From the NCBI GenBank assembly GCA_902581775.1, contig CACHPJ010000010.1:1-35752 (forward strand): 35,752 bases of DNA, given 5' to 3'. The stretch's first letter is position 1. Each line of letters starts with the position of its first letter. Source of the stretch: an uncultured Pelagibacteraceae bacterium (GTDB lineage Bacteria > Pseudomonadota > Alphaproteobacteria > Pelagibacterales > Pelagibacteraceae). Positions 1 through 34,388 of the stretch are shown here, piece by piece. The translations under genes and the position numbers were made by a program. The notes under the pieces are model-generated. The model was not told the DNA's origin. It did no database searches and was given only the letters and a program-made list of their open reading frames with translations.

Positions 1-391
1 TTATAATTGGGGAAATAGCAAATGGTGGAATAGAATACGTAATTAAAAATTTTCTTAAATATATATCCAACAGAGAACAAAAAATGATGCTTACAAAAAA
101 AACAAAGAAATATATTGAGCTATGTATTAAATAAGTTCCTATAATAATACCTAAAATTCCAGAGCTATATCCAAAAAAACCTTTTTTCCATTCTAATAAA
201 AAATCTTCTTTGTAAAATCTGTATGAGATAATGTTATTTATAGTAACCCCAGCTAGAGCGCCCAAAGCACTAAATGGAGAAATAGATAAAATTGAAAAGA
301 AAACTAAATAGCCTGATTTAAGATTATTTGAAAAGGCAATTTGAGCTATTCCATTAAATGTAGCTTCAAACCATTCTTTAATGCTTGCCAT
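1..391 (-). CDS. Urea transporter (UT) family membrane protein, partial
   Basis: This is an open frame of 130 codons starting at ATG 391 and running off the left edge, so only the N-terminal part is visible. I translated it by hand from the reverse strand. The residues NGIAQIAFSNN, SPFSALGALAGV and GFFGYSSGILGIIIG match the pattern of the bacterial and animal urea-transporter family: an amphipathic start, a first helix pair with a small-residue selectivity region, then a GxxGxxxxLxGI helix. The stretch YSIPPFAISPII resembles the family's Pro-rich filter loop. Members form trimeric channels for urea or small amides. The ATG lies 14 bases inside the end of the upstream decarboxylase gene, so the two are likely translationally coupled. 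No urease gene is visible, so the natural substrate is uncertain. The family call is by pattern recognition only. Confidence 0.68.
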   Translation of the reverse strand, partial: MASIKEWFEATFNGIAQIAFSNNLKSGYLVFFSILSISPFSALGALAGVTINNIISYRFYKEDFLLEWKKGFFGYSSGILGIIIGTYLIHSSIYFFVFFVSIIFCSLLDIYLRKFLITYSIPPFAISPII

Positions 392-1799
392 TAGACTTTG
401 ATGAAAGCCTTTTAGGAATAGTGTCTAAACTAAAAATATCTCTCCAGCTTTCTTTTTTTCTAATAATTTCTGAACCATGTGGCCCTAACAAAATAACAGC
501 TGGCCTAGTTTGAATAAATTGCATTGATTGGGTTAAATTATATGCACCAACATTAGAAAAAACTATCGTATCACCAACATTTGTTGAAGATAAATTTACA
601 GACTCATTAATTGAATCAATCTGCATGCACAGAGGTCCGTATATTTTTACTGGTCCACCATTATATCCGTTGCCATTGGTTTTTCTTACTCCATTAATTC
701 CATTTTTTTTAATTCCATTAGTTTTATTGGCTATTTTAGGTTCAAAATTATACCAATATGCAGTTGGCAAAACATTTACCCCTGCGTCTACAACAATATT
801 ATAACCACCTTTCGGATCTTTTTTTTTAGAAACTATTTTTGAGATTAATTGCATGCATTCATCTACTATAGCTCTCCCTGGTTCTAAAACTAATATTGGT
901 GTTCCATTATTGAACAAATGTTTTGCCTTTTTTAAATAATACATAACTTCATCGGCAAAACTTTTTAAAGTTTCCTCATTATATTTGCTTCCACCCGGAA
1001 TATCATACTCAGGTTTTAATTTATTAGATGAAGGAAAACCGCCACCAATATCAATTATTTTAGTATTAAGCCCAATTTTTTTAGCAAACTCTGCTAATTC
1101 AATTATAATCCTCGTAGATTTTGAGTATATTTTTGGGTCCACATTAAATGTGCCTGAATGGTTGTGAATTGCCTCAAATTTAAGGTTTTTCTTTTTAGAA
1201 ATTTCTTTTAAAGCTCTTTCAGCTTCTTTTGTTTCATAATTAAATCCAAATTTTGTCCACGACGAGCTTCCCATTATAAAATTAACTCTAATGCCCACTC
1301 GTGCTTTTTTTCCTAAATTTTTTGCAACTTCATCTAACAAATCTAATTCATCAAAATTATCAATATTGATTAAAGCTCCTTCACTAACTGCCTTACTAAG
1401 TTCTGATTTTGTTTTGTAACAACCATTAAAGATTATTTCTGCACCAGGTACATCTAAAGATCTAGCTAATTTATACTCCATGTCTGATACAACTTCAGCA
1501 TACGCTCCCTCTTCTTTTAAAATAGAACAAACTGCGGGAAGATAGTTTGTTTTATAAGAATAGCCAATTATAGTTTTAATTCCATCCTGAGTAAAATTTC
1601 TTTTGAATTCTCTATATTTTTCTCTTAATTTTTTTTCAGATAAAAGATAAAGCGGTGAGCCGTGTGCTTCAATTAACTTTTCAATATCTTCAACTTCCTC
1701 AAAAACTGAGGAAGTGTTCATATTCAAAATACTATGCTTGCCTATAGTACTTATTTGAATTAATTCAATATTTGGTGCTTCGTAATTATCTTTTTTCAT
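378..1799 (-). CDS. LysA-fold (type III) PLP-dependent decarboxylase
   Basis: This 473-residue protein has the fold-type III decarboxylase motifs in order. They are the PLP lysine in SYKTN (K83), HNHSG (212-216), the phosphate-binding IDIGGGF (249-255), EPGR (306-309), VVDAGVN near 337, and the catalytic-site GPLCMQID (C391, D395). It therefore most likely decarboxylates an alpha-amino acid or a carrier- or peptide-bound amino acid in the cytoplasm. Diaminopimelate decarboxylases usually carry CES where this protein has CMQ, so I do not call it lysA. An Asn/Gly/Lys-rich insert (residues 358-382) precedes the GPLC motif. ATG 1799 was chosen over a TTG at 1805 because it gives the same 14-base overlap with the upstream gene that the neighbouring junctions show. 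Context with ATP-grasp and PqqD-like genes suggests a biosynthetic role. Confidence 0.85.
   Translation of the reverse strand: MKKDNYEAPNIELIQISTIGKHSILNMNTSSVFEEVEDIEKLIEAHGSPLYLLSEKKLREKYREFKRNFTQDGIKTIIGYSYKTNYLPAVCSILKEEGAYAEVVSDMEYKLARSLDVPGAEIIFNGCYKTKSELSKAVSEGALINIDNFDELDLLDEVAKNLGKKARVGIRVNFIMGSSSWTKFGFNYETKEAERALKEISKKKNLKFEAIHNHSGTFNVDPKIYSKSTRIIIELAEFAKKIGLNTKIIDIGGGFPSSNKLKPEYDIPGGSKYNEETLKSFADEVMYYLKKAKHLFNNGTPILVLEPGRAIVDECMQLISKIVSKKKDPKGGYNIVVDAGVNVLPTAYWYNFEPKIANKTNGIKKNGINGVRKTNGNGYNGGPVKIYGPLCMQIDSINESVNLSSTNVGDTIVFSNVGAYNLTQSMQFIQTRPAVILLGPHGSEIIRKKESWRDIFSLDTIPKRLSSKSNGKH
654..728 (-). repeat. Asn/Gly/Lys-rich low-complexity insert in the decarboxylase
   Basis: About 25 codons encode repeats of N-G, K-N-G and T-N-G between the FEPKI and PVKIYG segments of the PLP decarboxylase. 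The DNA shows imperfect repeats of ATTCCATT on the plus strand. Family members normally have a short connection here. It is most likely a surface loop that has grown by slippage. Confidence 0.6.
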
Positions 1800-3966
1800 T
1801 TTCAATTATTTCTGATTTTAAAAATTTTCCAAATCGAACTCTATCTGCAGAAAATTCATTACAATTTCTTATAAAAACTAAATCCTCCTTTCGGTAAATG
1901 CTATCAGCTTTTCTGCCTAAAGCCAAATCTACAGCGATTAATGGTAGATTATGGCCTACATCTTTTGCGTAACTTATCCATGCGGGAAATCTGCAATTTA
2001 TTTCAATCAGTTTAAACTCTTCATCAAAACTATCTCTTATAAATTCTAACTCGATAGGCCCGACCCATTTTATTTCTTTAAGTATTTTTTTTACCTCTAA
2101 TTCTAATTTTGGCAAGGACACTTTTCTTGCTGCCCAAGTATTGCCTTGCTCGCATTGCAATAATTTTTTAATAGAAAGTTGTGCTATTAATTCATGATTA
2201 AAATTACAAACGCCTGAAATTGAAAACTCCTCACCTTTAATAAATTTTTTTGAAATAACACTTTCGAACCCATGACTATCATAAAATTCCCAAACATAAG
2301 GAATTTGATTTTTATTATAAACAATTGTTGGGCTGCCAGTAAAATTATTAATAACACCTTTAGTAACAAACGGAAAGCCAATTGAGTTTCCGACTAATCG
2401 TAAGCTTTCAATTGAGTCAGATCTAATTGTTTTCGGTAATGTGAAGCCTTCTCTTACTTTACCTTTGTGTCCATTAATACCTGTGATTTGTTTTGTTTTT
2501 TTAAATGAATTAATAGAAGGTAACAAAGTAGCAATACCTATTTTTTTTAAATCACTCTGAATTTCTATACAACTTTGTAATTCTGAGTCTAAACTTGGAA
2601 TAAGAACGTTGATTTTATGCGATCTATTAATTTCAGAAATTTTTTTTAATAAAATTTTTTTCGAACTTATATCTCTAAATAAAAAAATCTTATTAAATAA
2701 ATCTGTTCTTACTCCACCAGTATCATAAGGTCCATAAGCAAAGCCGTACATATCTCCAATTCTTTCACTTTCTGATAAAGCTTTTGCTACGCCTAAACCA
2801 GGCATTACGTAATCAAAACTATTAATCGCACTTATAGCAACTGAAGGTAAATTTTTATCTTTTGAATTCTTTTTTAAATGATGTTTTTTGTCAAAAAATC
2901 TCTTACCTAATGAAATAGTTTTATAAGTAGTTAGTGTTTTTATTTGATCAAATGGAACTGTAAGCTCTTCAATATTTCTAACAAAAGATTTTTTTAAATT
3001 AGTAAAGTTTCTTATAGGACAACCTGGGTTTAAAATTTCTTTTAGGACTATTAAAGGTTGATTGATTCCAGCAAATTGAGAGAGAAGTATCCATGAAGGA
3101 AAACGAGGATTTATTTCAATCAAATTATATTTATTCGTATTGTTGGATTTAATAAATTCTAATTCTAAAGGTCCTTTCCAATGAAGTTTTTTTAATATTT
3201 TTTGAGCATGATGAATTAAATCTGGATCATTAACTGGAGTTCCAATAATTCCTTTACCTCTTTGGTTTACGCCTAATTTTTTCATTGGTAAAATACTTGC
3301 ACAAGATCCGTCTTCTCTTGCAACCATTGACACATCAAACTCTTCTCCCTCTATCTTTTCCTGAATAATGGTGCCACCACCCCATCTAGAATTAAATATT
3401 TTTGCATAATATAAGGCGTCTGACCAATTATTTACTTTTTTTGCTGAAGCAATAACGCCTTTTACTACTAAAGGAAAAGTAAATTGATTAGCAACATATG
3501 GAACATCATAAATATTTGGAACATGGACTGTTTTTGGAGTTGGAAATTTATTTTTGTAACAAAAATAAGGAAGAGAAGTTTTTAAAGATAAATTATATTG
3601 TTCAATATCTGGGACTAAAACTTTGATGCCTTTACTTTTCAATCTCTCTTTTAACCTTGATAAAATTGGTATTTCTAATTCTAAACTAGGTATTATGGCA
3701 TGAAATTTTCTCTTTTTATTGATTTCAATTATTCTCTCATAAAATGCGTTTTCCCCTTCTGCTATTGGAGGCATGATATGAACATTGTCAATCAATCCAG
3801 GAGAAAAAGCTCCAGTCATCCAAGCGTCATATCCTAAAGCATCTATAGAAATATTTCCTTCCCAGCCTAACTTTATAGCCCTAGCAACAGCAGTACCAGG
3901 TTCTGAGTTATCTAATCCTCCAAAACCAGTTATAGCTATTCGTAATTCTTTTTTAAAGTTTTTCAT
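1786..3966 (-). CDS. Tandem-duplicated ATP-grasp ligase-like protein
   Basis: This 726-residue protein consists of two homologous halves about 371 residues apart. Each half has an N-terminal nucleotide-binding-like domain (RIAITGFGG at 9-17; VAISAINSF at 376-384), a GEEF segment (207-210; 578-581), LELEFI or IELEFI (267-272; 638-643) and a metal-binding EINxRFPxW (284-292; 655-663). These are ATP-grasp features, so each half probably activates a carboxylate as acyl phosphate and joins it to an amine. The paired organisation recalls carbamoyl-phosphate synthase large subunit, but the sequence lacks the usual CarB length and domains. The start overlaps the PqqD-like gene by 14 bases, and the end overlaps the decarboxylase gene by 14. 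Substrates are unknown. Both halves keep the Glu and Asn metal ligands, so both may be active. Confidence 0.85.
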   Translation of the reverse strand: MKNFKKELRIAITGFGGLDNSEPGTAVARAIKLGWEGNISIDALGYDAWMTGAFSPGLIDNVHIMPPIAEGENAFYERIIEINKKRKFHAIIPSLELEIPILSRLKERLKSKGIKVLVPDIEQYNLSLKTSLPYFCYKNKFPTPKTVHVPNIYDVPYVANQFTFPLVVKGVIASAKKVNNWSDALYYAKIFNSRWGGGTIIQEKIEGEEFDVSMVAREDGSCASILPMKKLGVNQRGKGIIGTPVNDPDLIHHAQKILKKLHWKGPLELEFIKSNNTNKYNLIEINPRFPSWILLSQFAGINQPLIVLKEILNPGCPIRNFTNLKKSFVRNIEELTVPFDQIKTLTTYKTISLGKRFFDKKHHLKKNSKDKNLPSVAISAINSFDYVMPGLGVAKALSESERIGDMYGFAYGPYDTGGVRTDLFNKIFLFRDISSKKILLKKISEINRSHKINVLIPSLDSELQSCIEIQSDLKKIGIATLLPSINSFKKTKQITGINGHKGKVREGFTLPKTIRSDSIESLRLVGNSIGFPFVTKGVINNFTGSPTIVYNKNQIPYVWEFYDSHGFESVISKKFIKGEEFSISGVCNFNHELIAQLSIKKLLQCEQGNTWAARKVSLPKLELEVKKILKEIKWVGPIELEFIRDSFDEEFKLIEINCRFPAWISYAKDVGHNLPLIAVDLALGRKADSIYRKEDLVFIRNCNEFSADRVRFGKFLKSEIIENEKR

Positions 3967-4237
3967 TTATTAAATTAAGATTTTTTAATTTTGTTAAAAA
4001 ATTACTAATATCTTTCCTTGCTATTGTTTTATTTATATCATGTGTTTTTAAAATTTCTTTAGTCAAATTAGAAATATCTGTTTTCCCTTTCTCTAATTTT
4101 TTGAGAATTAACAATGCTGTTCTGTTGCACGAACAGTAATTAGATGAAGTAGTGTCTATTAACATACCGCTTTTACCATCGGGATCTAACTCTAAAAAAA
4201 CGTTCTTTTTTAAAGACCACTTACTATTAGCATTCAT
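3953..4237 (-). CDS. PqqD-like (RRE) small protein
   Basis: This 94-residue protein matches the PqqD family pattern. It has a beta-rich N-terminal part, then a conserved segment around NYCSCNRTALLIL (residues 33-45), LEKG, and a C-terminal helix with KDISNFLTKL and NLI. PqqD-type domains (RiPP recognition elements) bind leader peptides and present them to modifying enzymes. Cys35 and Cys37 lie in the conserved segment. None of the other PQQ synthesis genes is present, so this is not evidence for PQQ production. The gene starts 8 bases after the TPR gene stop and its end overlaps the ATP-grasp gene by 14 bases. It probably acts as a binding or delivery partner for the neighbouring ligase or decarboxylase. 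No Shine-Dalgarno sequence is obvious, which fits coupling. Confidence 0.75.
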   Translation of the reverse strand: MNANSKWSLKKNVFLELDPDGKSGMLIDTTSSNYCSCNRTALLILKKLEKGKTDISNLTKEILKTHDINKTIARKDISNFLTKLKNLNLINEKL

Positions 4238-4245
4238 AATGGTTT

Positions 4246-7200
4246 TTAACTTGCTCTTTTTAGTCCAGCCTTAGCGTCTGGATAATATGGAGAAAGCTTC
4301 AAGGCATCTTGAAAATATTTCTTAGCTCCTGCCTTGTCATTTTGCTCTAACTTAACATAACCCATGCCAGTAATCGCGTCTATCAAGAAAGGGTATTTAT
4401 CTATTGTTTCGTTAAAATATTTAGCAGCTTTATCAAATTCTTTGTTTCTAAAGTGCAACCATCCTAGTGTAGATCTGGAGTCGTATACAACTGTCCACTG
4501 ATTTTTTGTGTTAGGTATTGGTACCACTTCGGTTATTGGTAATAATTTTTTTTCATCCTCGAATTTAATCAATGCTTCAAGTATTGGTTTGGCTTCGGCA
4601 TCTTTGCCTAACCTAAATAATGCAAAAGCTTTTCCTCTTTCAGCGTTTTTAGACTTTCCACCATTCTCCAAATATTGATTAAATCTTTTTAATGCTTGCT
4701 TATTATTTTTTGCAAAATAAGTTCCCCAACCCATACTATAATAAGCTCCTAACGATTTTTTAGGCTCTACTTGCAACTCATCATAGACCGGATCGATATA
4801 CGCTGGAGCTAAAGATGCTGCTATTGTAGCTTTTTTTGCTGACTTATCATTATCTTTCATTCCTTTATAAGTTTTGGCTAATAAAAATTGAATATCGCCT
4901 GAATAAGGGTAGATTTTTTCTCCAAATTCTAAGATATCCTTAGCGCTTTTAAATTTTTCATTTTCGATAAGTTCTTTTGTAATGAATGTGTAAATTCCTA
5001 CTCCTTGATAAGGGGCTAGAGATAATGATTTATATAAACTTTTACCTGCATCATCCCATTTTTTTTCAGCAGCAGCCACATAAGAAAGGCCTCTGTGAGA
5101 TAAATAAGCTTTTGGTTGTTTCTTAATTACAGTTGTAAATCCTTCTTTAGCTTTTTCGTAGTCTTTTTTATAGTATGAAACCCATGCTTCTCCATCATCG
5201 ACTAACCACTTCCAGTTTTCTTCCTTTATTTCTTCACGAGATTTTTTGAATAGCTCAAGAGACTTATCTAATTGAGCTTGCCTCTTTACATCATCCTTAA
5301 TATACAAGCTGTTGTTCGCTAAATAAAATGCTTTATTGTATAAAGTGTAACCAGAACGTTTGGCTTGAATAAGACCACTGCTTGAATACCAAAAAGATTT
5401 ATCTATTTTCAAAGCAGCTTCAAACGCTTGTTTTGCTGCTGCACTATTATCAAGTGCTAAATTCATCCACCCAACGCAATCTTGGGCAGCAGGATTATTA
5501 GATGCTTCTGCTTTCGAAATTTGAGAACTACATGATTTTAGAGCAGCTTCATATTTAGCTTTAGCACCTTCAGTTGTTTTCTCCTTAAATGCTTCATAAT
5601 AAGTCTTCCAACCATCTTTAACGATATCTCTTTTTCTGTATTGTAAAGTATTTAAACCACTGTTTGCTTTTATGTAACCAGGCCACTTTTTCAAAGCAGT
5701 TTCAAAATATTTTTTAGCTTCAGGGTAGTTTTTTTGATTATACTTAGCCCAACCCAAACCTGAATAAGCTTCAGCATCTAAATATTCCAACTTTTCTAAA
5801 CCTTTGGCAGTTTTTCTTACTGCTAGAGCCTTTTTAAATTCTGACTCTGCCTCGGAATATTTTTTTAAATATAGTTTATTTAACCCATTTCCATTATGAG
5901 CAACATAATATTTTCCACCGTTAGCAAAATATTGTTTAAATCTCTTATCAGCTTGTTTAAATTTTCCCCTATAATAATTATTCCAAGCTACAGAATAATA
6001 TGCACCAGTTAAGTTTTTAGGAGATAGACCAAGTTTATCAATTGCTGGGTCAATATAAGCTGGAGCTAAATTAGCAGCAATAATTAATTTTTGTTCAGCT
6101 GTAGTTACATCTTTCAAATTTTTATAAGCCTTAGCTAATAAAAACTGAATATCTGCTGAATAAGGATATATTCTTTGACCTAGTTCAAGAATATATTTAG
6201 ATTTTTCCCACTGACCAGATTTTTGCATTTTATTTACAGGGGCAATATAATCAGTCAATGGTTGATAAGGGTTTAAGTTTAAAGATTTTGTTAGTTGATT
6301 TGCTGCAGTATTAAAGTCTTTTTTCTCCATAGCAATATAAGCTAGTCCTTTATATGATCCATAAGCTTTTTCATTTTGTTTAATTATATTTTCAAAGTCT
6401 TTTTTTGCATTACTATAATCTTTTTTGTAAAACTTAATCCAGGCTCTTGCGTCATTCATTAAAAATTTCAAATCTGCATCAACTTTGGCTTCGGCTTTTT
6501 TTAATCTCTCTTCTGCTCTATCGAAACTTCCAACATTTATTAAAGCCCAAGCTTCAGTGTAATTGACTAATTGATATCTTTGCGCAGTTGAAAGTCCGCT
6601 TGAAGAAAAATAAAAGTACGGGTCAATTTTTAAAGCTTCTTTAAATGCTGTAGCTGACTTGCTGTACTCTTGTTGTGCAAGTAAACTCCAGCCCACGCAA
6701 TCATGTGCTGCTGGATTTTTAGCTTCTACAGCTGCTTTAATTTTTCCTTCACACACTTTTTGTTGTTCTTTGTATTTTCCTTTATAGTAAAGTTTCCAAC
6801 CGTCTTTAACTATGTCTCTCTTAGTAAATTTTATTGCAGATAAACCTGACGTAGCTAAATAATATCCAGGCTGTTTAGCTAAAGCTTTATTAAAATTTGT
6901 TTCCGCACTTTTATAATTTTTGGCATAAAGATGAGCATGACCTAATTTCGCAAAATATAAAGGATCTGTGTTCCATTTTTTAGATAAACTTTCATAAGTT
7001 TTAATTGTTGTTTCTTTTTCTCCCAATCCATATAATGCTGTATCTACAAGTGTAACTAAACCACTATTGTGTCTAATCGCTCTTGCGCCGATAACTGCTT
7101 CTTTTAATGCCTTTTTGTAGAATTCTTTTGCTTTTTTCTTATCTTTTTTAGCAAGAGATTTACTAGCTTCTGAAATATAAAATCTTGCTAAACCATCTCT

Positions 7201-7902
7201 GCAATAAAAACATTTCTTATCTCTCGTATTACCACTTTTGAAAGCTTTAACAGCTTTTTCCCAGTCATTTTGAAATACGTAAACCCATCCTTGTGTAATA
7301 GCAGAGTCTTTTAATTTAACTGACCACTTTGAAAGCGTGGCCTTATCGCCTTTTTTTACAAATTCAAGTGCATCGTCGTATCTTTTTTCTTTGATAGCAA
7401 TCCAAGCAAGTGCATCGTAAGCACCCCAATCGTGCTCATTTTTACCTACTTCTAAAGCTTTATTTGCAAAATCTTTACCCTTATCAAAGTTATTTAATTT
7501 TATATTATTCCAAGCTAATCCTAAATACCCGTTAAAATTATCCTCAGGTTTGTCAGATTGGAGTTTATTTACTTTTTCAAATATCACAGTTGATCCAGCA
7601 TAGTCGTTTAAAACAAATTTAGACCAACCTTGCCAAACGAGAGCTTCTTTGTAATTTTTATAATCTTTTTTTTCTTCTTTAGAAGGAGCTTTAAATTTGT
7701 TTAGATATTTGTTTGTGTATTTTAATGTTCCAACCCAATTGCCTTTTAAAAACATTGACTCTGCTCTTTTGTTTAAAGCTGTGATGGATTTCGGTTCTTT
7801 AAATTCGTCAACTTTTTCCTTTTTTTCAGCAACTGCTGAAGAAAAAACAAGAAATGATATCAACAATACAAAGATTGTCCTTAAATTAAAAATTTGAGCC
7901 AT
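4246..7902 (-). CDS. Secreted large TPR-repeat protein with internal super-repeat
   Basis: The 1218-residue product has a Sec signal peptide (hydrophobic residues 9-22, likely cleavage after AVA at 25), so it should act in the periplasm or at the outer membrane. The rest is TPR-like helical repeats, with recurrent patterns such as YSEAESEFKKALA, YPEAKKYFETALKKWPGY and AGAKKYFQDALKLSPYYPDA. A block of about 400 residues occurs twice (roughly 314-674 and 711-1095). Both copies carry RDIVKDGWK, NPAAxDCVGW, YSxDIQFLLAK and LAPAYIDP. The only six cysteines form three pairs: 231/234, 384/402 and 791/809. The second and third pairs have the same 18-residue spacing, which suggests disulfides. An AGAGGCG ribosome site lies before ATG 7902. 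It is the first gene of the PqqD/ATP-grasp/decarboxylase unit. Its role is unknown; TPR arrays usually scaffold protein or peptide partners. Confidence 0.85.
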   Translation of the reverse strand: MAQIFNLRTIFVLLISFLVFSSAVAEKKEKVDEFKEPKSITALNKRAESMFLKGNWVGTLKYTNKYLNKFKAPSKEEKKDYKNYKEALVWQGWSKFVLNDYAGSTVIFEKVNKLQSDKPEDNFNGYLGLAWNNIKLNNFDKGKDFANKALEVGKNEHDWGAYDALAWIAIKEKRYDDALEFVKKGDKATLSKWSVKLKDSAITQGWVYVFQNDWEKAVKAFKSGNTRDKKCFYCRDGLARFYISEASKSLAKKDKKKAKEFYKKALKEAVIGARAIRHNSGLVTLVDTALYGLGEKETTIKTYESLSKKWNTDPLYFAKLGHAHLYAKNYKSAETNFNKALAKQPGYYLATSGLSAIKFTKRDIVKDGWKLYYKGKYKEQQKVCEGKIKAAVEAKNPAAHDCVGWSLLAQQEYSKSATAFKEALKIDPYFYFSSSGLSTAQRYQLVNYTEAWALINVGSFDRAEERLKKAEAKVDADLKFLMNDARAWIKFYKKDYSNAKKDFENIIKQNEKAYGSYKGLAYIAMEKKDFNTAANQLTKSLNLNPYQPLTDYIAPVNKMQKSGQWEKSKYILELGQRIYPYSADIQFLLAKAYKNLKDVTTAEQKLIIAANLAPAYIDPAIDKLGLSPKNLTGAYYSVAWNNYYRGKFKQADKRFKQYFANGGKYYVAHNGNGLNKLYLKKYSEAESEFKKALAVRKTAKGLEKLEYLDAEAYSGLGWAKYNQKNYPEAKKYFETALKKWPGYIKANSGLNTLQYRKRDIVKDGWKTYYEAFKEKTTEGAKAKYEAALKSCSSQISKAEASNNPAAQDCVGWMNLALDNSAAAKQAFEAALKIDKSFWYSSSGLIQAKRSGYTLYNKAFYLANNSLYIKDDVKRQAQLDKSLELFKKSREEIKEENWKWLVDDGEAWVSYYKKDYEKAKEGFTTVIKKQPKAYLSHRGLSYVAAAEKKWDDAGKSLYKSLSLAPYQGVGIYTFITKELIENEKFKSAKDILEFGEKIYPYSGDIQFLLAKTYKGMKDNDKSAKKATIAASLAPAYIDPVYDELQVEPKKSLGAYYSMGWGTYFAKNNKQALKRFNQYLENGGKSKNAERGKAFALFRLGKDAEAKPILEALIKFEDEKKLLPITEVVPIPNTKNQWTVVYDSRSTLGWLHFRNKEFDKAAKYFNETIDKYPFLIDAITGMGYVKLEQNDKAGAKKYFQDALKLSPYYPDAKAGLKRAS
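4618..5772 (-). repeat. TPR super-repeat, copy 2 (approximate limits)
   Basis: This encodes about residues 711-1095 of the TPR protein. The landmarks match copy 1: RDIVKDGWKTYY, the C791/C809 pair, YSSSGL, PYSGDIQFLLAK, LAPAYIDP and GAYYSMGWGTYF. The offset to copy 1 grows from about 396 to 419 residues because of small insertions in this copy. Confidence 0.7.
5881..6963 (-). repeat. TPR super-repeat, copy 1 (approximate limits)
   Basis: This encodes about residues 314-674 of the TPR protein. The landmarks are RDIVKDGWKLYY, the C384/C402 pair, YFSSSGL, PYSADIQFLLAK and LAPAYIDP, followed by a GAYYSVAWNNYY segment. The copy is diverged at the DNA level, so the duplication is old. Confidence 0.7.
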
Positions 7903-7998: not shown

Positions 7999-8505
7999 TT
8001 AAGAATTCAACTCATCCGCGAAAATAGAAACTATTTCCCTATCTATCCAAATATTATTTCTATAACTGTCTTTTCTTAAAAACCCTTCATGCTGAAAACC
8101 CGCCTTTTCGTGAATTATTTTTACTGCCTCATTTGGAGTTAAAAAATCAGAATTTATTTTCCTTAATTGTAACTCTTTAAAACCATAATTTACAATTGAT
8201 TTAATAACACCAGAACCTATTCCCTTACCCCATAAATCTTTTTTTCCAATAACAATAAAAAATCTAGCTACTTTATTTTTTTTATTAACTAAATCTAAAC
8301 CACTTACTCCGATAAATTTTTTTTCATGCTCTATAGCTTGTCTATACCAACCATACATTAAATAGTTTTCAATGTTTGAAAAATCTTTAATACTTTGAAC
8401 TTCATCCTCTAACCAAATATTTACATCTGGATCCAATAAAAAATTAATATACTCCTTTACATCGCTCTGTTTTAGATTTCTAAGCTGAAATAATTCTTTA
8501 CGCAT
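7999..8505 (-). CDS. GNAT family N-acetyltransferase (RimJ/RimL-like)
   Basis: This is a 168-residue cytoplasmic protein of the GCN5-related acetyltransferase family. The acetyl-CoA pyrophosphate-binding loop is GKGIGSG (93-99) after the beta-strand FFIVIG. The C-terminal NEAVKIIHEKAGFQHEGFLR segment (125-144) is typical of the RimJ/RimL and sugar-N-acetyltransferase branch. It would transfer an acetyl group to a protein N terminus, an amino sugar or a small amine; the acceptor cannot be read from the sequence. The gene begins 36 bases after the EamA-type gene. It ends 96 bases before the TPR gene, a gap that probably contains the TPR gene promoter, although I see no convincing -35/-10 pair there. 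Confidence 0.82.
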   Translation of the reverse strand: MRKELFQLRNLKQSDVKEYINFLLDPDVNIWLEDEVQSIKDFSNIENYLMYGWYRQAIEHEKKFIGVSGLDLVNKKNKVARFFIVIGKKDLWGKGIGSGVIKSIVNYGFKELQLRKINSDFLTPNEAVKIIHEKAGFQHEGFLRKDSYRNNIWIDREIVSIFADELNS

Positions 8506-8541
8506 ATTTTATTTTATCACATATAACCCTGTAATAAAAAA

Positions 8542-9408
8542 TTAACTAGTTAAAGCTTTATTTTTATCAAAACTGTTCAAAACTATTGCCAAAATAATAA
8601 TAGCGCCCCCGATTAACACACTTATTGGTGGTATCTCGTTTAAAAATAACCATACCCAAACTGGAGCAAAGAGTGTTTCCGTTAGCATCAAAAGTCCAAC
8701 GGTTGTTGATGCGGTGGTTCTAGATCCAATAGTAATACATATAAAACCAAAAGCTAACTGTGGAACACCTAGAAAAAAACCCATTATAATATCTTTATTA
8801 GAAAAAACGTAAGATTCAGATAAAAACAACCCATATATAATACTAAAAATTCCGGAATAAAATATTGCAGGAACCATATCTAAATTTTTATTTTTTCTAA
8901 TTATCATTACTAAAATTGAAAAATTAATTGGTATAGCTAAAGCGATTATATTCCCTAAAAGTGATCCTGATGAAATAGAATCTCCTACCATTATTAAAAT
9001 TCCGCTCATAGCTAAAACTATTGATATAAAACAAATTAAAGATATTTTTTCTTTCAGAAAAAAATATCCAAATATTGCAAGAAACATCGTTTGAGTGCTT
9101 ATTATAAAAACTACATTGGCTACTGAAGTAATAGTCATTGAATAAACATAAGCTACAAAGCTTAAAGACATTACCAATCCTCCTATAAGAGCAGGGTAGC
9201 CAGCATTTTTTATAATTTTTATAGTATTTTTTTTATATGTACTTAATAGAAATAATATTAAAGCAATCATAAAAAAAACTGATCTAATCAAAAGAATTTG
9301 CCACACACTTGCTTCCTCGAAAGATCTCACAATAAATCCTCCCCAACTCAAACAAAACGCACCAAAAAGTAAAAGAGTATATCCGGGTATTTTATAAAGA
9401 AATTGCAT
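8542..9408 (-). CDS. EamA-family (DMT superfamily) transporter
   Basis: This 288-residue membrane protein has about ten hydrophobic segments arranged as two five-helix EamA repeats. The first begins GYTLLLFGAFCLSWGGFIVRSFE, and the second ends with the family-typical LTETLFAPVWVWLFLNEIPP followed by a hydrophobic helix and a short basic tail. DMT transporters of this type usually export amino acids, nucleosides or other small metabolites; the substrate is not predictable here. The ATG shares one base with the stop codon of the MATE gene (TAATG arrangement), so the two transporters are probably translated as a pair. Confidence 0.88.
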   Translation of the reverse strand: MQFLYKIPGYTLLLFGAFCLSWGGFIVRSFEEASVWQILLIRSVFFMIALILFLLSTYKKNTIKIIKNAGYPALIGGLVMSLSFVAYVYSMTITSVANVVFIISTQTMFLAIFGYFFLKEKISLICFISIVLAMSGILIMVGDSISSGSLLGNIIALAIPINFSILVMIIRKNKNLDMVPAIFYSGIFSIIYGLFLSESYVFSNKDIIMGFFLGVPQLAFGFICITIGSRTTASTTVGLLMLTETLFAPVWVWLFLNEIPPISVLIGGAIIILAIVLNSFDKNKALTS

Positions 9409-18026: not shown

Positions 18027-19130
18027 TTATAATTGTTTATAATTACCTTTGCTCCACTCATAAAAAACGTAACCTGGTAAACTTACGTCACCTTTTTTAT
18101 CAAAGCTTAAAGTTCCAAGCACAGTATTAAATTTTCCTTTTTTCATTGCTTGAAGAACTTTTTTTCTGTCGATTGATCCTGCTTGAGTTGCAGCCTGTTC
18201 AAATACTTGTAATGCAGCATATGAGTAAAGCACATAACCTTCTGGCTCAATTCCGGCAGCTTTAAATTTTTTCACTAATGGTGCAGCTTCTGGATTATTT
18301 CTTGGATCCGGGCTGAAAGTCATTAAAGTACCTTCCCCTGCGTCACCAGTAATTTGCCAATACTCTGCAGTTACTAGTGCATCTCCACTGATCAATTTAG
18401 TTTTCATACCTTGGTCTCTCATTTGTCTTACGATAAGACCACCTTCAGTATGGTAACCTCCAAGATAAACTGCATCAATATTGTTTGCTTTAAGTTTTGA
18501 AACTAGAGCAGAGTAATCTTTTTCACCTGCTGTGAATGCTTCGTACATAGTTTCTTTTAATCCACCTTTATTCATGTTTTTCTTTGTAGCATCTGCTAAA
18601 CCTTTTCCATAAGCAGTTTTGTCATGAATTATTGCAACTTTTTTTCCACTGTATTCTTTTGCTAAGAATGCGCCAGCAACTTCACCTTGCTGGTCATCTC
18701 TACCGCAAACTCTAAATACATTTGGTCCACCTTTGTCTGTGAACGCTGGATTAGTTGATGCTGGAGATACTTGGATAATACCTTCTTCTGTATATACTTT
18801 AGAAGCTGGTATTGAAGATCCTGAACAGAAATGTCCTGCAACATAAGTTACTCCTTGACCTGCAAATTTATTTGCAACTGCTACAGCTTGTTTTGGATCA
18901 CAAGCATCATCGCCTATTACTAATTTAACTTTTTCTCCCAAAATACCACCTTTTGCATTAGTATCTTTTAACCACATTTCAGCACCAGCTTTTAACTGAG
19001 CACCGAAAGATGCGTATTGACCACTCATTGGTCCAGCAGAAGCTACAACAACGTCAGCTTTTGCAGTTATTGATCCTAATAAAAAGATTGAAGCAATTAT
19101 TGAAAGAATATTTTTCATAATCTTAAACAT
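18027..19130 (-). CDS. livK: Branched-chain amino-acid-type ABC transporter substrate-binding protein
   Basis: This 367-residue periplasmic binding protein has a Sec signal peptide (hydrophobic residues 8-20, likely cleavage after AKA at 25) and then the LivJ/LivK-type start DVVVASAGPMSGQYASFGAQ. Other hallmarks are KLVIGDDACDPKQAVAVANKF, the VSPASTNPAF hinge region and GKKVAIIHDKTAYGKG. It should capture leucine/isoleucine/valine or related amino acids for the livHMGF genes directly upstream. The upstream ATG (MFKIMKN) is favoured over the internal one because GAGGG lies just before it. An 84-base gap with its own promoter, plus a strong terminator, indicates separate high-level transcription of the binding protein. 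Confidence 0.92.
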   Translation of the reverse strand: MFKIMKNILSIIASIFLLGSITAKADVVVASAGPMSGQYASFGAQLKAGAEMWLKDTNAKGGILGEKVKLVIGDDACDPKQAVAVANKFAGQGVTYVAGHFCSGSSIPASKVYTEEGIIQVSPASTNPAFTDKGGPNVFRVCGRDDQQGEVAGAFLAKEYSGKKVAIIHDKTAYGKGLADATKKNMNKGGLKETMYEAFTAGEKDYSALVSKLKANNIDAVYLGGYHTEGGLIVRQMRDQGMKTKLISGDALVTAEYWQITGDAGEGTLMTFSPDPRNNPEAAPLVKKFKAAGIEPEGYVLYSYAALQVFEQAATQAGSIDRKKVLQAMKKGKFNTVLGTLSFDKKGDVSLPGYVFYEWSKGNYKQL

Positions 19131-19146
19131 ATGTCCCTCTTTTTTG

Positions 19147-19166
19147 TTGTTAATTAATTAATTAAT
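19147..19166 (-). promoter_or_regulatory. ATTA-repeat leader element, livK copy
   Basis: On the minus strand this reads ATTAATTAATTAATTAACAA. The identical 20 bases occur at 35641-35660 before the second Liv-type binding-protein gene. Here it lies 16 bases before the start codon and just before a GAGGG ribosome site. Confidence 0.6.
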
Positions 19167-19173
19167 ATTGATT

Positions 19174-19202
19174 ATTGAACACTACCTAAGCTTTTTTGTA
19201 AA
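19174..19202 (-). promoter_or_regulatory. Candidate promoter of the first livK
   Basis: On the minus strand TTTACA (19197-19202) is followed by a 17-base spacer and TTCAAT (19174-19179). It lies in the gap after livF. The -10 and the following leader align closely with those of the second binding-protein gene at 35630, which strengthens the call. Confidence 0.5.
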
Positions 19203-19214
19203 TAAGGAAAAAAA

Positions 19215-19934
19215 TTATTTTTTTCCGCCCCCCTCAAGGTAAGCAGCTTGAATATCCTTGTTTTTTAATAAGTCTTGACCTGTGCCTTCTAAAGTAACAT
19301 TTCCATTAACTAAAACGTACCCTCGATCCGCAAGTTCTAAAGCTTTTTTAGCATTTTGCTCAACTAAGAAAATTGTCACTTTTTTTTGTTTATTAATATT
19401 TTTAATAGCAATAAAAATTTGATTTACAAGTTTAGGCGCAATACCTAGTGACGGTTCATCTAATAACAGCATTTTTGGTCTAGCCATCATTGCTCTGCCA
19501 ATAGCTAACATTTGTTGTTCTCCCCCAGAGAGAGTTCCTCCTCTTTGATTTAATCTATCTTTAAGAACCGGAAAAAGATCATAAACATCTTTTACATCGG
19601 TATCAAAATTCTTTCCTTTATCATATGCTGATGCTCCTAGCCTCAAGTTATCTTCTACAGAAAGCCTTGAAAAAATTCTTCTTCCTTCGGGAACTTGCGA
19701 AATTCCAAGATTTACTATTTCGTGTGGAGGTAAATTTTCTATGTGTTGATCATCAAATAAAATTTCACCGGTTGAAGCTTTGTTAACACCGCTTATTGTC
19801 ATTAATAAAGTTGATTTACCTGCTCCATTAGAACCAATCAAAGTAACAATTTCTCCGCTATTTACTTTTACATCTACTCCTCTTAAAGCCTGAATATTTC
19901 CGTAGAATGTTTCAACTTTTGATATTAATAACAT
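19215..19934 (-). CDS. livF: ABC transporter ATP-binding protein LivF
   Basis: This 239-residue cytoplasmic ATPase carries Walker A GSNGAGKST (34-42), the Q-loop region ISQVPEGRRIFSRLSVEDNL (78-97), the ABC signature LSGGEQQ (135-141) and Walker B LLLDEP (156-161). It also has the switch His-region replaced by FLVEQN, as is normal for LivF proteins. It pairs with LivG to power uptake through LivH/LivM. The VPEGR motif and the short length separate LivF from LivG. It starts one base after the livG stop. The stop codon lies inside an all-A/T palindrome (19206-19226) that could slow polymerase but is too weak to call a terminator. Confidence 0.95.
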   Translation of the reverse strand: MLLISKVETFYGNIQALRGVDVKVNSGEIVTLIGSNGAGKSTLLMTISGVNKASTGEILFDDQHIENLPPHEIVNLGISQVPEGRRIFSRLSVEDNLRLGASAYDKGKNFDTDVKDVYDLFPVLKDRLNQRGGTLSGGEQQMLAIGRAMMARPKMLLLDEPSLGIAPKLVNQIFIAIKNINKQKKVTIFLVEQNAKKALELADRGYVLVNGNVTLEGTGQDLLKNKDIQAAYLEGGGKK

Positions 19935-19935
19935 T

Positions 19936-20730
19936 TTATTCCTCTGTTCCTAAATATGCCTCAATAACTGCTGGGCTATTTTTCGTTTCTTTTGCAGATC
20001 CTTGAAATATTTTCTTTCCGTAATTTAAAACAACTACATGATCAGAAATCTCCATTACGACGCTCATGTCATGTTCAATTAACAAAATACCAGTTTTTTT
20101 TTCCTTTTTTATAAATAGAAGTAACTTATTTAATTCAGCAGATTCTTTTGCATTTAATCCAGCCGCCGGTTCATCTAAACATAGTAAATAAGGGTTAATA
20201 CACATTGCTCTTACTATTTCTAGTTTTCTTTGATCTCCATAAGGTAGATCACCTGCATCATCGTCAGCTCTATGGGTAAGACCTATTATGTCTAGCCAGT
20301 ATTTTGAAATTTCTATTGCTTCTTTTTCTTTTTTTACAAAAGAGGGTGCATTAAATAATCCAAAAATTGTAAATCCTGATGCGTCCATTAGTTTATTATG
20401 TTGAGCAACCATTAAATTTTCTAATACGGACATTTGTGGAAAAAGTCTAATATTTTGAAAAGTTCTAGCTACACCTGCTTTCTGAGCAACTTTAAAATCC
20501 GAAAACTTTTTTAAATTCAACCTCTCATTTTCTTTATTAAGAAACATTGAGCCTGCAGTAGCTTTATAAAAACCCGTTAAACAATTAAATACAGTTGTTT
20601 TTCCAGCGCCATTAGGTCCAATAATTGAGGTAATCTGATCTTTGGATGCTGAGAAAGATAGGTCGTCTATCGCTAATAATCCTCCAAATCTCATAGTCAA
20701 ATTTTCAACATCTAATAATTTTTGTGTCAT
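19936..20730 (-). CDS. livG: ABC transporter ATP-binding protein LivG
   Basis: This 264-residue ATPase has Walker A GPNGAGKT (38-45), the LivG-typical VARTFQNIRLFPQMSVLENLMVAQH segment, a signature helix in the form LPYGDQRKLEIVRAM rather than LSGGQ, and Walker B CLDEPAAGLN. LLIEHDM forms the switch region. These features separate LivG from LivF. It should form the LivF-LivG ATPase pair of the first Liv transporter. The ATG overlaps the livM stop by four bases (ATGA), indicating translational coupling. Confidence 0.95.
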   Translation of the reverse strand: MTQKLLDVENLTMRFGGLLAIDDLSFSASKDQITSIIGPNGAGKTTVFNCLTGFYKATAGSMFLNKENERLNLKKFSDFKVAQKAGVARTFQNIRLFPQMSVLENLMVAQHNKLMDASGFTIFGLFNAPSFVKKEKEAIEISKYWLDIIGLTHRADDDAGDLPYGDQRKLEIVRAMCINPYLLCLDEPAAGLNAKESAELNKLLLFIKKEKKTGILLIEHDMSVVMEISDHVVVLNYGKKIFQGSAKETKNSPAVIEAYLGTEE

Positions 20731-22004
20731 TTAATAACCTCTTTTTTGTGAAGAGTTATTGTTGGTTTTCTTGTTGCTAAAATTCCTCTAGGTCTAAAAA
20801 TCATTATAAGAACCATTGCTCCGCCAAATGCTATCATTCTGTAAGACTCAAAATCTCTAAAAACTTCAATTAATCCAATTAAAAAGACAGTCGCTAAAAC
20901 TACACCTGTTTGTGAACCCATACCTCCAAGCACCACAATTGCAACAATTATCGCTGACTCAATAAAAGTAAAACTTTCTGGGCTTATAAAAGCTTGTCTA
21001 GTTGCAAAAAAAGAACCTGCAAAACCTCCGAACATTGCACCAATGGCAAACGCTGTAAGTTTTGTATTTCTTGGGTTAACACCTAATGACTTGCATGCTA
21101 TTTCATCTTCTCTTAAAGCCTCCCAGGCCCTGCCTATAGGTAATCTTCTTATTTTAATCGTAAAAAGATTTGTAATTAAAGCTAAGACTAATATTAAATA
21201 ATATAAAAATATTATTCTTTGCATAGGACTATATTCTAAACCAAAGAATGTATGAAATGTTTGCTCCCCTTCTTCTGGAAAACTTTTAAACGGCAAGCCA
21301 AAAAAAGATGGTCTGGGTATGCCTGTTAAACCATCTGGTCCTTTTGTAAGTTGATACCAATTTAATAAAAGAATTCTTATCATTTCACCAAATGCCAATG
21401 TAACAATTGCAAGATAATCACCCCTTAGTCTTAAAACTGGGAAACCTAACAAAACTCCAAACATCGCTGCAAATATTCCTGCTATAGGTAAACAAATCCA
21501 AAAAGACCATCCAAAATGAATTGCAAACAATGCATAAGAGTAAGCACCTACCGCATAGAATGCAACGTAACCAAGATCAAGTAATCCTGCTAATCCTATT
21601 ACAATATTCAAACCCCATCCCAACATTATATAAGTTAACATCATGATGGCTATATCCATCAGATATCGATCAGTAAAAGGAAGGAAAGGAAAAATAACTG
21701 AGAAAATAATTGCACTTAAAGCAATTTGAGTTCCTTTTGTGTCTAAAAATTTCGTAATTGATTTACCAACAGTTGATTGTATTCCATATTTTTGATCTCT
21801 GTTGTAAATATACAAATTAGTAAGAAATCTTCCTAAAGCACAAACTATAACAATAACTAATACGATAAACCATTTAGGGCTGACAACTAGAACCTCATTT
21901 TTAGCAACTGTTCTTAAACCTACTATTGGACCAAATAAAGCTAAGGCAATTAAACCTGTAAAAAGACTATCTTTAATTGAAGAAACTAAAAAATTTTTTC
22001 TCAT
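20727..22004 (-). CDS. livM: Branched-chain amino-acid-type ABC permease LivM
   Basis: This 425-residue inner-membrane permease equals the E. coli LivM length and includes the long N-terminal part with extra hydrophobic segments before the conserved core. Core signatures are MLGWGLNIVIGLAGLLDLGYVAFYAVGAYSYAL, LRLRGDYLAIVTLAFGEMIRILLLN, and the ATP-binding-protein contact loop GRAWEALREDEIACKSLGVN. It forms the translocation pore with LivH. The start immediately follows the livH stop with no gap, and the end overlaps livG by four bases. Confidence 0.95.
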   Translation of the reverse strand: MRKNFLVSSIKDSLFTGLIALALFGPIVGLRTVAKNEVLVVSPKWFIVLVIVIVCALGRFLTNLYIYNRDQKYGIQSTVGKSITKFLDTKGTQIALSAIIFSVIFPFLPFTDRYLMDIAIMMLTYIMLGWGLNIVIGLAGLLDLGYVAFYAVGAYSYALFAIHFGWSFWICLPIAGIFAAMFGVLLGFPVLRLRGDYLAIVTLAFGEMIRILLLNWYQLTKGPDGLTGIPRPSFFGLPFKSFPEEGEQTFHTFFGLEYSPMQRIIFLYYLILVLALITNLFTIKIRRLPIGRAWEALREDEIACKSLGVNPRNTKLTAFAIGAMFGGFAGSFFATRQAFISPESFTFIESAIIVAIVVLGGMGSQTGVVLATVFLIGLIEVFRDFESYRMIAFGGAMVLIMIFRPRGILATRKPTITLHKKEVIK

Positions 22005-22922
22005 TTATACTTTTTCAATATCAGGCTTGCCTAAAAATCCAGTTGGATAAAATATTAAAACAACCACTAAAACTGTAAATGCAGCTATGTCTTTATATTC
22101 TATTGAAATATATCCTGACCAAAAAACTTCTATTAAACCTATTAACAATCCTCCAAGCATAGCTCCGGGTATGGAGCCTATTCCTCCGAGTACTGCAGCG
22201 GTAAATGCTTTGATACCAGCAAGAAAACCTATATAAAAATCTATAACACCATAATACATGACGAACATCATGCCAGCGACAGAGGCAAGTGACGAACCTA
22301 TTATAAAAGTTATTGATATCGTTCTGTCTACATTTATTCCCATTAATGCAGTCATAGTTCTATCTTGTTCACATGCTCTCTGAGCACGGCCAAGCGCTGT
22401 TTTAGTAATAAGTAAGGTAAAGACTGCCATTAAAACAATTGTTACTAAAATTATAAAAATTTGTAAGTAACTTAACGATACAGTAAAACCTGTATCTTCC
22501 ATGAAAGTAAAGCCGCCCTGAATTACTGGTTGCAAAGTTTTTATTCTAGCTCCTTGTGCAGCTTGAACATAATTTTGTAGAACTATGGACATTCCTAAAG
22601 CTGATATAAGAGGAGCTAATCTAAAAGATTTTCTTAAAGGTTTATAAGCTAATTTTTCTACCGTCCAGCCATAACAAGCTGTAAAAACCATTGCTATTAA
22701 AAGTGTAAGTAACAACACTATTGGCAATGCAATACTTGTAAGTGCAAATAATATAAATGAGATTAAAGCGATAAATGCTCCAACCATGAAAATATCACCA
22801 TGAGCAAAGTTTATCATGCCGATTATTCCATAAACCATAGTATATCCTATGGCTATCAATCCATAAACTGAACCTAAAGTTACACCATTAATTAATTGTT
22901 GTAAGAAATAAGCAGTATCCAT
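22005..22922 (-). CDS. livH: Branched-chain amino-acid-type ABC permease LivH
   Basis: This 305-residue membrane protein has about eight hydrophobic helices. LivH signatures are QQLINGVTLGSVYGLIAIGYTMVYGIIGMINFAHGDIFMVG at the N terminus, the coupling loop GRAQRACEQDRTMTALMGINVDRTI, and FTAAVLGGIGSIPGAMLGGLLIGLIE. It pairs with LivM. The gene starts 10 bases after the ProC-like gene, so that reductase is likely in the same transcript. No clear Shine-Dalgarno is seen, which agrees with coupling or read-through. Confidence 0.94.
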   Translation of the reverse strand: MDTAYFLQQLINGVTLGSVYGLIAIGYTMVYGIIGMINFAHGDIFMVGAFIALISFILFALTSIALPIVLLLTLLIAMVFTACYGWTVEKLAYKPLRKSFRLAPLISALGMSIVLQNYVQAAQGARIKTLQPVIQGGFTFMEDTGFTVSLSYLQIFIILVTIVLMAVFTLLITKTALGRAQRACEQDRTMTALMGINVDRTISITFIIGSSLASVAGMMFVMYYGVIDFYIGFLAGIKAFTAAVLGGIGSIPGAMLGGLLIGLIEVFWSGYISIEYKDIAAFTVLVVVLIFYPTGFLGKPDIEKV

Positions 22923-29031: not shown

Positions 29032-29728
29032 CGTTTTTACTCCCAAGTAGAAAAGCGACTGTTCCAGCAATTAATCCTGCAAATAATAATGCCCATTCAG
29101 CAGAGATTAAATAAATCACAGGACCTAATATCGTTCCTAAAATTACTGAGATACAAACACTTAAATTTTTCATTGCCCCTATCATCATACAAAAAAAATA
29201 AACTGGATTTACAATTGCTAAACCAACTAACATATCTTTATTTAGATAATCGGCAGATAGATAACCAATGATAGTCATTAAAATAGCAGTGGACCAAGTG
29301 CCAATACCTATACCAATCCAAAAATCTATTCTGTGTCTTTTGTTAATTTTTTTGTAACTATCTTTAGCAATTAACCATGAGGAAACTGCTAGAAAATGAC
29401 AAGATAAGTAATATTTCCATTTTGGTTGTGATTTATGCTCGAGTAAGGGAAATAATGAAACAGTCATCGGATAAAGTCTAAAATTTACTAACCAAACAGC
29501 TAAAAAAATATTTATTATTGATGCGCCTACCAATAAAGACTCCGCCATCACCAGTTGACCAGGAAGTGCATAGGTAAATAAGCTAGATGCTGCGCTTTGT
29601 TGAAGATTAAATCCAGCATCTTTTAGTAATGCACCTAAAGCAACAAAACAAGCAGCTAGCGGAATAGCAGGACTTCTAGAACCCTTTAAAGATTTTAAGC
29701 CTGTAAGAAATATTTTTGAATTAATCAT
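29024..29728 (-). CDS. azlC: AzlC family branched-chain amino-acid export permease
   Basis: This 234-residue inner-membrane protein has about seven helices. AzlC signatures are IPLAACFVALGALLKDAGFNLQQSAASSLFTYALPGQLVMAE near the N terminus, NFRLYPMTVSLFPLL in the middle (the family's conserved N-R pair), and GLAIVNPVYFFCMM. With AzlD it exports branched-chain or related amino acids. The ATG overlaps the LivF-type gene by four bases. An exporter gene in the same operon as an amino-acid-type importer could prevent overload or exchange a product. Confidence 0.88.
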   Translation of the reverse strand: MINSKIFLTGLKSLKGSRSPAIPLAACFVALGALLKDAGFNLQQSAASSLFTYALPGQLVMAESLLVGASIINIFLAVWLVNFRLYPMTVSLFPLLEHKSQPKWKYYLSCHFLAVSSWLIAKDSYKKINKRHRIDFWIGIGIGTWSTAILMTIIGYLSADYLNKDMLVGLAIVNPVYFFCMMIGAMKNLSVCISVILGTILGPVIYLISAEWALLFAGLIAGTVAFLLGSKNDE

Positions 29729-34319: not shown

Positions 34320-34341
34320 AAAACATTAAATCTTATAAAAG

Positions 34342-34369
34342 AAAAGCCCCTAGTTTGCTAGGGGCTTTT
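34342..34369 (-). terminator. Terminator or attenuator between the second binding protein and LivH
   Basis: A perfect 12-base-pair stem (34342-34353 with 34358-34369) has an AGCCCC core and a TTTG loop, and is followed by a T-rich stretch on the minus strand. It lies after the binding-protein stop at 34389 and before the permease start at 34319. It should make the binding-protein message the most abundant part of the operon. Confidence 0.9.
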
Positions 34370-34388
34370 TCTAATTACTTAAAAGATA

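Follow-up and report, generated by a model that had tools for sequence, protein, structure and literature searches.

Gene composition of the locus

The stretch of DNA analysed here (the window) is the contig CACHPJ010000010.1 (C10) of the GenBank assembly GCA_902581775.1, taken from its first base and 35,752 nucleotides long; the assembly comprises 890 kb, is 77% complete and is Pelagibacterales-like. The beginning of the window contains five genes of the same direction, including those of a PqqD-like protein, an ATP-grasp ligase and a decarboxylase, which a sequence-only reading of the window had proposed to be an undescribed biosynthetic unit with the last four genes overlapping. All five genes were found in this arrangement on the minus strand, at the following positions:

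4246–7902, minus strand: large tetratricopeptide repeat (TPR) protein with an N-terminal signal-like sequence and many TPRs (Pfam)
3953–4237, minus strand: discrete PqqD-like recognition element (RRE) of the kind known from ribosomally synthesised and post-translationally modified peptides (RiPPs) (Pfam PqqD, 38.7 bits, cut-off 23.4)
1786–3966, minus strand: tandem ATP-grasp ligase with a carbamoyl-phosphate synthase (CPSase)-like/PylC-like N-terminal fold and two ATP-grasp stretches (Pfam, NCBIfam)
378–1799, minus strand, from the first ATG (a TTG is present at 1805): pyridoxal phosphate (PLP) decarboxylase of the alanine-racemase fold (Orn_Arg_deC_N, 113 bits)
1695–1799, minus strand: N-terminal tail of the decarboxylase, approximately residues 1–35, outside the LysA/FigC alignments and predicted to be disordered
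1767–1784, minus strand: motif YEAPNI in the decarboxylase tail, including Pro9, which fits the pattern [YW]xxPx[L/V/I/F/A]
2–391, minus strand: membrane protein of the urea-transporter family (UT), first 130 amino acids (Pfam UT, 56.5 bits)

At each of the junctions between the PqqD, ATP-grasp, decarboxylase and UT genes, the reading frames share 14 bases; the TPR and PqqD genes are separated by a gap of 8 bases. Since the window starts at base 1 of the contig, the UT gene is cut at its end.

Conservation and distribution of the module

The genomes of GTDB species (approximately 85,000) were scanned with an alignment of the decarboxylase, which yielded at least 574 confirmed relatives; the best 80 of them were used for the comparison, and they were picked via the decarboxylase, without selection on the neighbouring genes. 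The organisms named in the records of these 80 relatives represent approximately 17 phyla. Of the 65 loci of this set whose DNA extends far enough, 63 have the PqqD gene directly upstream; 74 of 75 loci encode an M23 or SIR2 domain, in most cases together with UT.

Four distant alphaproteobacterial genomes encode proteins related to the ATP-grasp ligase. In three of them, the genes run TPR, PqqD, tandem ATP-grasp, decarboxylase (ATP-grasp identity 37–41%), with a downstream UT-SIR2 gene in two loci and the contig edge ending the third; the fourth locus contains PqqD, a single ATP-grasp, the decarboxylase and UT fused to M23. As the order recurs in distant alphaproteobacteria and relatives of the module are found in about 17 phyla, the gene arrangement is not a product of chance. 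The genes are thus neither rarely found together nor arranged in an order unique to this genome, and the proposal of a conserved unit withstood the comparison. The set does not have its home in marine alphaproteobacteria; within the Pelagibacterales, it is an island of one genome.

Several other contexts were considered and rejected. The module had no match in plasmids at an E-value of 1e-40, the searches with single-sequence patterns revealed no relatives of the ATP-grasp protein in IMG/VR and, as to an anti-phage defence system, PADLOC found no match for the window genes and only marginal SIR2 matches in one of the relatives (L007).

The PqqD-like protein and the leader-like tail of the decarboxylase

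The AlphaFold2 model of the window PqqD-like protein (predicted local distance difference test score, pLDDT, of 94.4) and its structural matches indicate a PqqD-type winged-helix fold with a leader-binding cleft. The nearest solved structures are those of TbiB1 and TfuB1, both solved with leader peptides (root mean square deviation 1.3–1.9 over approximately 85 residues, Z-score 12.3–13.9), and the family profile also placed these two proteins first (E-values 5e-14 and 1e-12). Both the profile and the predicted fold agree with the earlier assignment of this protein to RREs. Two other PqqD identities were rejected: a PQQ-type PqqD, where the equivalog score is 14 bits against a cut-off of 46, and the PqqD of HPr-rel-A (TIGR04353), where the relatives score 30–31 bits and the window protein 13.7 bits, with a cut-off of 35.

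Discrete lasso RREs recognise the leader motif [Y/W]xxPx[L/V/I/A/F/Y], whose YxxP part must be present for the complex to form in the related LPP system (PMC13381572). The pattern [YW]xxPx[L/V/I/F/A/M] was found in the N-terminal tail of all 85 decarboxylases (85/85), mostly 40–44 residues (approximately 42) before the GSP anchor of the enzyme, and it is followed by a G..NKFG or GKH stretch. The rate of the motif is 5% in shuffled tails and 2.3% in the first 50 residues of 989 neighbouring proteins; the stricter published form, [YW]xxPx[L/V/I/F/A], is present at the expected interval in 74 of 80 sequences, and the motif proline (Pro9 in the window protein) is invariant in 54 aligned members. 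BLAST and HMM matches to LysA and FigC start at residue 29 or later, past the tail, and in the AlphaFold2 model of the window decarboxylase the tail has a pLDDT of 45–67 and no strand, with values above 90 for most of the core. A lysine residue follows the motif in 77 of 84 tails and is more than 90% conserved in the alignment; it is replaced or displaced in seven tails, including four Accumulibacter loci with R, S or T.

The sequence-only reading had found no precursor peptide, and the wider search gave the same result: no small open reading frame (ORF) with the motif recurs in the 80+ loci within approximately 10 kb of DNA around each, and the few chance matches are unrelated. As candidates for the partner of the RRE, that reading had named the TPR protein, a free metabolite and the PqqD-like protein itself; the sequences indicate the decarboxylase instead, whose tail carries the motif in every member. 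Given the match of the RRE in structure and profile and the presence of the tail motif, the operon contains a lasso-type RRE and one protein with a matching predicted ligand, the decarboxylase.

A possible correspondence between Y or W in the motif and the pocket residues of the RRE was also considered; the differences are located at the C-terminus of the RRE (residues 88–89) and follow one large clade, so no conclusion is drawn from them. In one of the loci (L064, 6523–7329), the RRE is preceded in the same protein by a DNA-binding domain of the TetR type (TetR_N, 27.6 bits), and this fusion protein is a possible regulator sensing the tail. The RREs of L032, L037, L045 and L088 have N-terminal parts of similar length, with no Pfam match where they were scanned.

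The decarboxylase and the ATP-grasp ligase

The window decarboxylase scores 212.3 bits against the lysA model, under the equivalog cut-off of 297.9, and 204 bits against the FslC model of NCBIfam, under the cut-off of 500. Its best PDB match is FigC, and the active-site loop reads C-M-Q in both proteins; the LysA chains in the same alignment read C-E. A PLP decarboxylase devoid of the diaminopimelate signature, as was noted earlier, is borne out. The loop reads C-M-Q, C-M-N or C-M-A in 77 of 84 members, and the other seven lie outside the search pattern. BtrK is another detectable relative of the enzyme. The substrate that FigC decarboxylates is N-citrylornithine, and the subfamily of FigC works on conjugates and takes no part in polyamine synthesis (PMC7857480); the FigC-like active site of the module enzyme suggests that it decarboxylates an amino acid in amide linkage.

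Both halves of the fused ATP-grasp protein keep the catalytic Lys, Glu, Asn and Arg; in the split ATP-grasp proteins of L017 and L020, the second unit has lost the E/N/R set. Judging by its sequence, the ligase resembles CPSase-like ligases and, remotely, PylC; the score against the PylC model of NCBIfam is 32.5 bits, with a cut-off of 248.3.

Two types of the module and their membrane and hydrolase partners

The loci with SIR2 contain two ATP-grasp units, either fused or encoded by two genes, and the loci with M23 contain one; the apparent exceptions, L055 and L084, are extended frames holding one ATP-grasp domain. The tree of the catalytic part of the decarboxylase, which has a midpoint root, comes from a short search and includes the window as a row of unusual composition, unites the SIR2 loci and the window in one group and the M23 loci in the other; the window belongs to a fully supported group of nine, together with eight UT-SIR2 loci. 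UT-SIR2 fusions were found in L007, L008, L011–L017 and L020.

The assignment of the last gene to the UT family is supported by Pfam, and relatives contain the full domain (e.g., 227 bits in L018); the idea of a plain small-molecule channel does not hold, as the UT proteins of the relatives are fused to SIR2 or M23, and the clade of the window is of the SIR2 type. The window UT is accordingly expected, by comparison with the sequences of its clade, to run on into a SIR2 domain. Against the Yut equivalog, the window fragment of 130 amino acids scores 41 bits and the full-length protein of L018 scores 111 bits, with a cut-off of 274.6; a hydropathy scan brought out eight helices or fewer per UT part and did not resolve the full set.

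The SIR2 domains of the relatives keep the NAD-binding and catalytic motifs and the Cys4 zinc site, and the HxH motif of M23 is kept in 67 of 68 proteins. In the UT-SIR2 proteins of L007, L008 and L011–L016, the usual sirtuin GIP(D)FR is changed to GIPDY followed by T, V, I or L, with the other motifs intact. The dependence of SIR2 on cytosolic NAD, and not topology, is what presumably places the C-terminal domain of the UT fusion on the cytosolic side of the membrane; by analogy, the M23 domain of UT-M23 would lie there too. In a locus of Omnitrophota (L056, 11347–13238), UT and SIR2 are encoded by separate adjoining genes, which supports a functional link between the two.

As revealed by phmmer, a large TPR gene lies directly upstream of PqqD in the majority of the SIR2-type relatives, 10 in number (L007, L008, L010, L012, L014–L017, L020 and L056), and the same search found no TPR counterpart next to L011. 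Many M23 loci contain, instead of the large upstream TPR gene, a downstream putative outer-membrane barrel and a short TPR gene; the barrel label is a reading of the sequence, and no Pfam family covers the protein. In L040 (13592–15136), the UT-M23 gene is followed by a sensor kinase gene with HAMP, HisKA and HATPase domains. Genes of a size similar to this kinase follow UT-M23 in Accumulibacter loci as well.

Proposed function and alternative explanations

The best explanation of these data, to which we give a probability of roughly 0.6, is an undescribed module of an RRE, an ATP-grasp ligase, a leader-tagged decarboxylase and a UT-hydrolase, where the RRE docks the decarboxylase to the ligase and the window represents the tandem-ligase SIR2 type. 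Sequence comparison and structure modelling have established the conserved gene order, the identity of the RRE, the motif on the decarboxylase and the division into one-ligase/M23 and two-ligase/SIR2 loci. The RRE would bind the decarboxylase tail by β-strand addition, as lasso RREs bind leaders, and would thereby keep the decarboxylase beside the ATP-grasp enzyme. The ligase would couple a carboxylate and an amine, the latter probably in the side chain of a diamino acid, by analogy with PylC and lysine, and the decarboxylase would strip the α-carboxylate of the conjugate, similarly to the action of FigC on N-citrylornithine, leaving an N-acyl diamine or a similar amine; in the window type, two ligations would take place. 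The product, small and neutral, may pass through the UT domain and be trimmed or released by the deacylase (SIR2) or peptidase (M23) fused to UT; its handling outside the inner membrane may fall to the TPR protein or, in loci of the M23 type, to the outer-membrane protein and the short TPR protein.

Several points weigh against this explanation. For the class of substrate, the evidence is a short active-site loop and a distant resemblance to PylC; the parts assigned to M23, SIR2 and TPR are conjectural, and the tail could have a partner other than the RRE. The loci L033 and L034 encode a tailed decarboxylase with no detectable RRE nearby, and L034 is also without a nearby ATP-grasp gene. The search pattern favours this decarboxylase subfamily, and the relatives compared are the best 80 only, found via the decarboxylase. 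The window's own SIR2 is absent, the rest of the UT/SIR2 gene not having been found elsewhere in the assembly of the window genome.

An alternative, which we consider unlikely, makes the tail itself the substrate, so that the enzyme would contain its own RiPP precursor: the RRE would present the tail, the ATP-grasp enzyme would add an amino acid, the decarboxylase would act on the attached group as BtrK acts on a group bound to an acyl carrier protein, and SIR2 or M23 would free the product. The conserved lysine of the NKFG/GKH stretch would be the obvious attachment site, and its frequency in the tails is consistent with such a role, as are the ability of sirtuins to take acyl groups off lysine side chains and the detectable relationship of BtrK to the decarboxylase. 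Yet the lysine is replaced or displaced in seven tails, and the four Accumulibacter loci with R, S or T in its place have an otherwise complete module; moreover, the use of a whole enzyme as a stoichiometric carrier would be costly.

It is less probable still that the target of the RRE is a RiPP precursor of the conventional kind, with its gene elsewhere in the genome, and that the tail either competes with this precursor or is left over from the fusion of a precursor and an enzyme. RREs ordinarily work on precursor peptides (PMC7470986), and the ORF search, which covered the surroundings of each locus, leaves room for such a gene; nevertheless, the loci contain no recurring small ORF with the motif, and the invariance of its proline over about 17 phyla is not what a relic would show. 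That the decarboxylase is an ordinary LysA of the lysine pathway and its neighbours are unrelated passengers is very improbable: it does score against the lysA model, and no true lysA was found in the 77%-complete assembly of the window genome (most likely because of an assembly gap), but 13 of the 15 congeners searched possess a separate lysA at 415–448 bits, the loop is C-M-Q and not C-E, and the module is conserved around the decarboxylase in many phyla.

Comparison with known systems

The lasso RREs TbiB1, TfuB1 and PbaB1 have the same fold as the module RRE and are akin to it by profile, and their recognition motif is present in the operon; the motif of the module, however, is carried by an enzyme, and that of lasso systems by a short precursor. 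Pfam searches revealed no lasso leader peptidase (B2) or macrolactam cyclase (C) among the operon and two flanking genes, and the module neighbours in the relatives belong to other families, although not every neighbour was scanned; nor does a lasso-type short precursor with a YxxP leader and a variable core recur in the 80+ loci.

The FigC/FslC (rhizoferrin) subfamily, which includes SbnH, AcsE, MccE and BtrK, is linked to the module decarboxylase by the best PDB match and the C-M-Q loop. The module enzyme differs in lying below the FslC cut-off and in having the leader-like tail, and no synthetase of the nonribosomal peptide synthetase-independent siderophore type was recognised in the module loci, where its position is taken by an ATP-grasp ligase. 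PylC and the CPSase-like ligases share the PylC-like N domain and the ATP-grasp domain with the module ligase, but the latter is far below the PylC cut-off and fused in tandem, and no pyrrolysine genes were recognised nearby.

The butirosin side chain is made by the ATP-grasp enzyme BtrJ, the carrier BtrI and the decarboxylase BtrK, which acts on a carrier-bound amino acid. The module shares the combination of ATP-grasp and a LysA-fold decarboxylase with this pathway, but it has an RRE and a leader motif and no acyl carrier protein. In the daptide pathway, an RRE brings the substrate to an oxidative NAD(P)-dependent decarboxylase acting on the precursor peptide (PMC10036551); the pairing of an RRE with a decarboxylase is common to both systems, but the enzyme family is unrelated, and the text of that paper contains no ATP-grasp.

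Discrete RREs matching the lasso model but lacking lasso machinery have been noted, with no partner or function offered for them (PMC7470986), and the module family may be among these orphan lasso-like RREs and explain part of them. None of the module proteins scores above the cut-off of an NCBIfam model that would give this set a name, and no description of the set was found in open-access papers (subscription papers and preprints lay outside the search), so the unit can be called undescribed, as was proposed.

The findings suggest that a docking system known from peptide antibiotics here holds two enzymes together to make a small molecule, and the presence of at least 574 candidate loci in approximately 85,000 species, cultured lineages included, means that this small molecule may be widespread. 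If the motif does bind the RRE, the large group of orphan RREs would gain a concrete partner, the pairing of RRE and leader would extend from substrate delivery to enzyme docking, and caution would be due in genome mining where the presence of a discrete RRE is read as evidence for a peptide product. More tentatively, and with slightly less than even odds, one can propose a precursor-free pathway where the pairing of RRE and leader is a general means of enzyme docking; the decarboxylase may then even be its own carrier, on whose tail the amino acid is assembled before SIR2 or M23 frees it at the mouth of the UT channel.

The island in the Pelagibacterales genome

Upstream of the TPR gene, the following features mark the edge of the inserted segment:

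7999–8505, minus strand: GNAT acetyltransferase (Pfam)
8506–8541, no strand: island boundary; EamA is followed by gcvT in relatives and by the island here
8542–9408: EamA transporter, adjoining the island boundary

In the relative G532, the TerC and outer-membrane genes beside the locus are 94–98% identical to those of the window, and EamA is followed by gcvT, gcvH and gcvP; in the window genome, EamA is followed by GNAT and the module. The junction of EamA and gcvT is also present in three further congeners, one of which (L107) has an extra intervening gene. Another contig of the window genome, C14, stops two bases past its gcvT match, which is without approximately 56 N-terminal residues. 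This contig is probably the other side of the assembly gap beyond UT and, as it ends inside gcvT, the rest of UT and the far boundary of the island fall in that gap.

The tandem ATP-grasp protein was found in none of the others among 147 genomes of the order, and the decarboxylase is present in one of 397 genomes of the order, that of the window; in the Pelagibacterales, the module is a single-genome island. The GNAT gene is absent from 60 congeners and is not among the genes between EamA and gcvT in the relatives; it belongs to the inserted island and is not conserved with the module elsewhere. The suggestion that the contig end is an assembly chimera and the cluster comes from another bacterium is scarcely credible: the cluster does lie at the contig end and no other genome of the order carries it, but its GC content (approximately 30%) matches the rest of the contig and not the 57–65% of the relatives read in detail, it is continuous with EamA and MATE genes of this lineage, and the far side of the gap fits the end of C14 inside gcvT, the gene after EamA in relatives.

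The GNAT protein (7999–8505) has a weak similarity to PseH and spermidine acetyltransferase, and it might act on an amine product. Further along the window, two amino-acid-type ABC importers, named by a reading of the sequence only, are encoded at 18027–22922 and 29725–35630; the second of them has a hydrolase gene (32296–33429) between its subunits.

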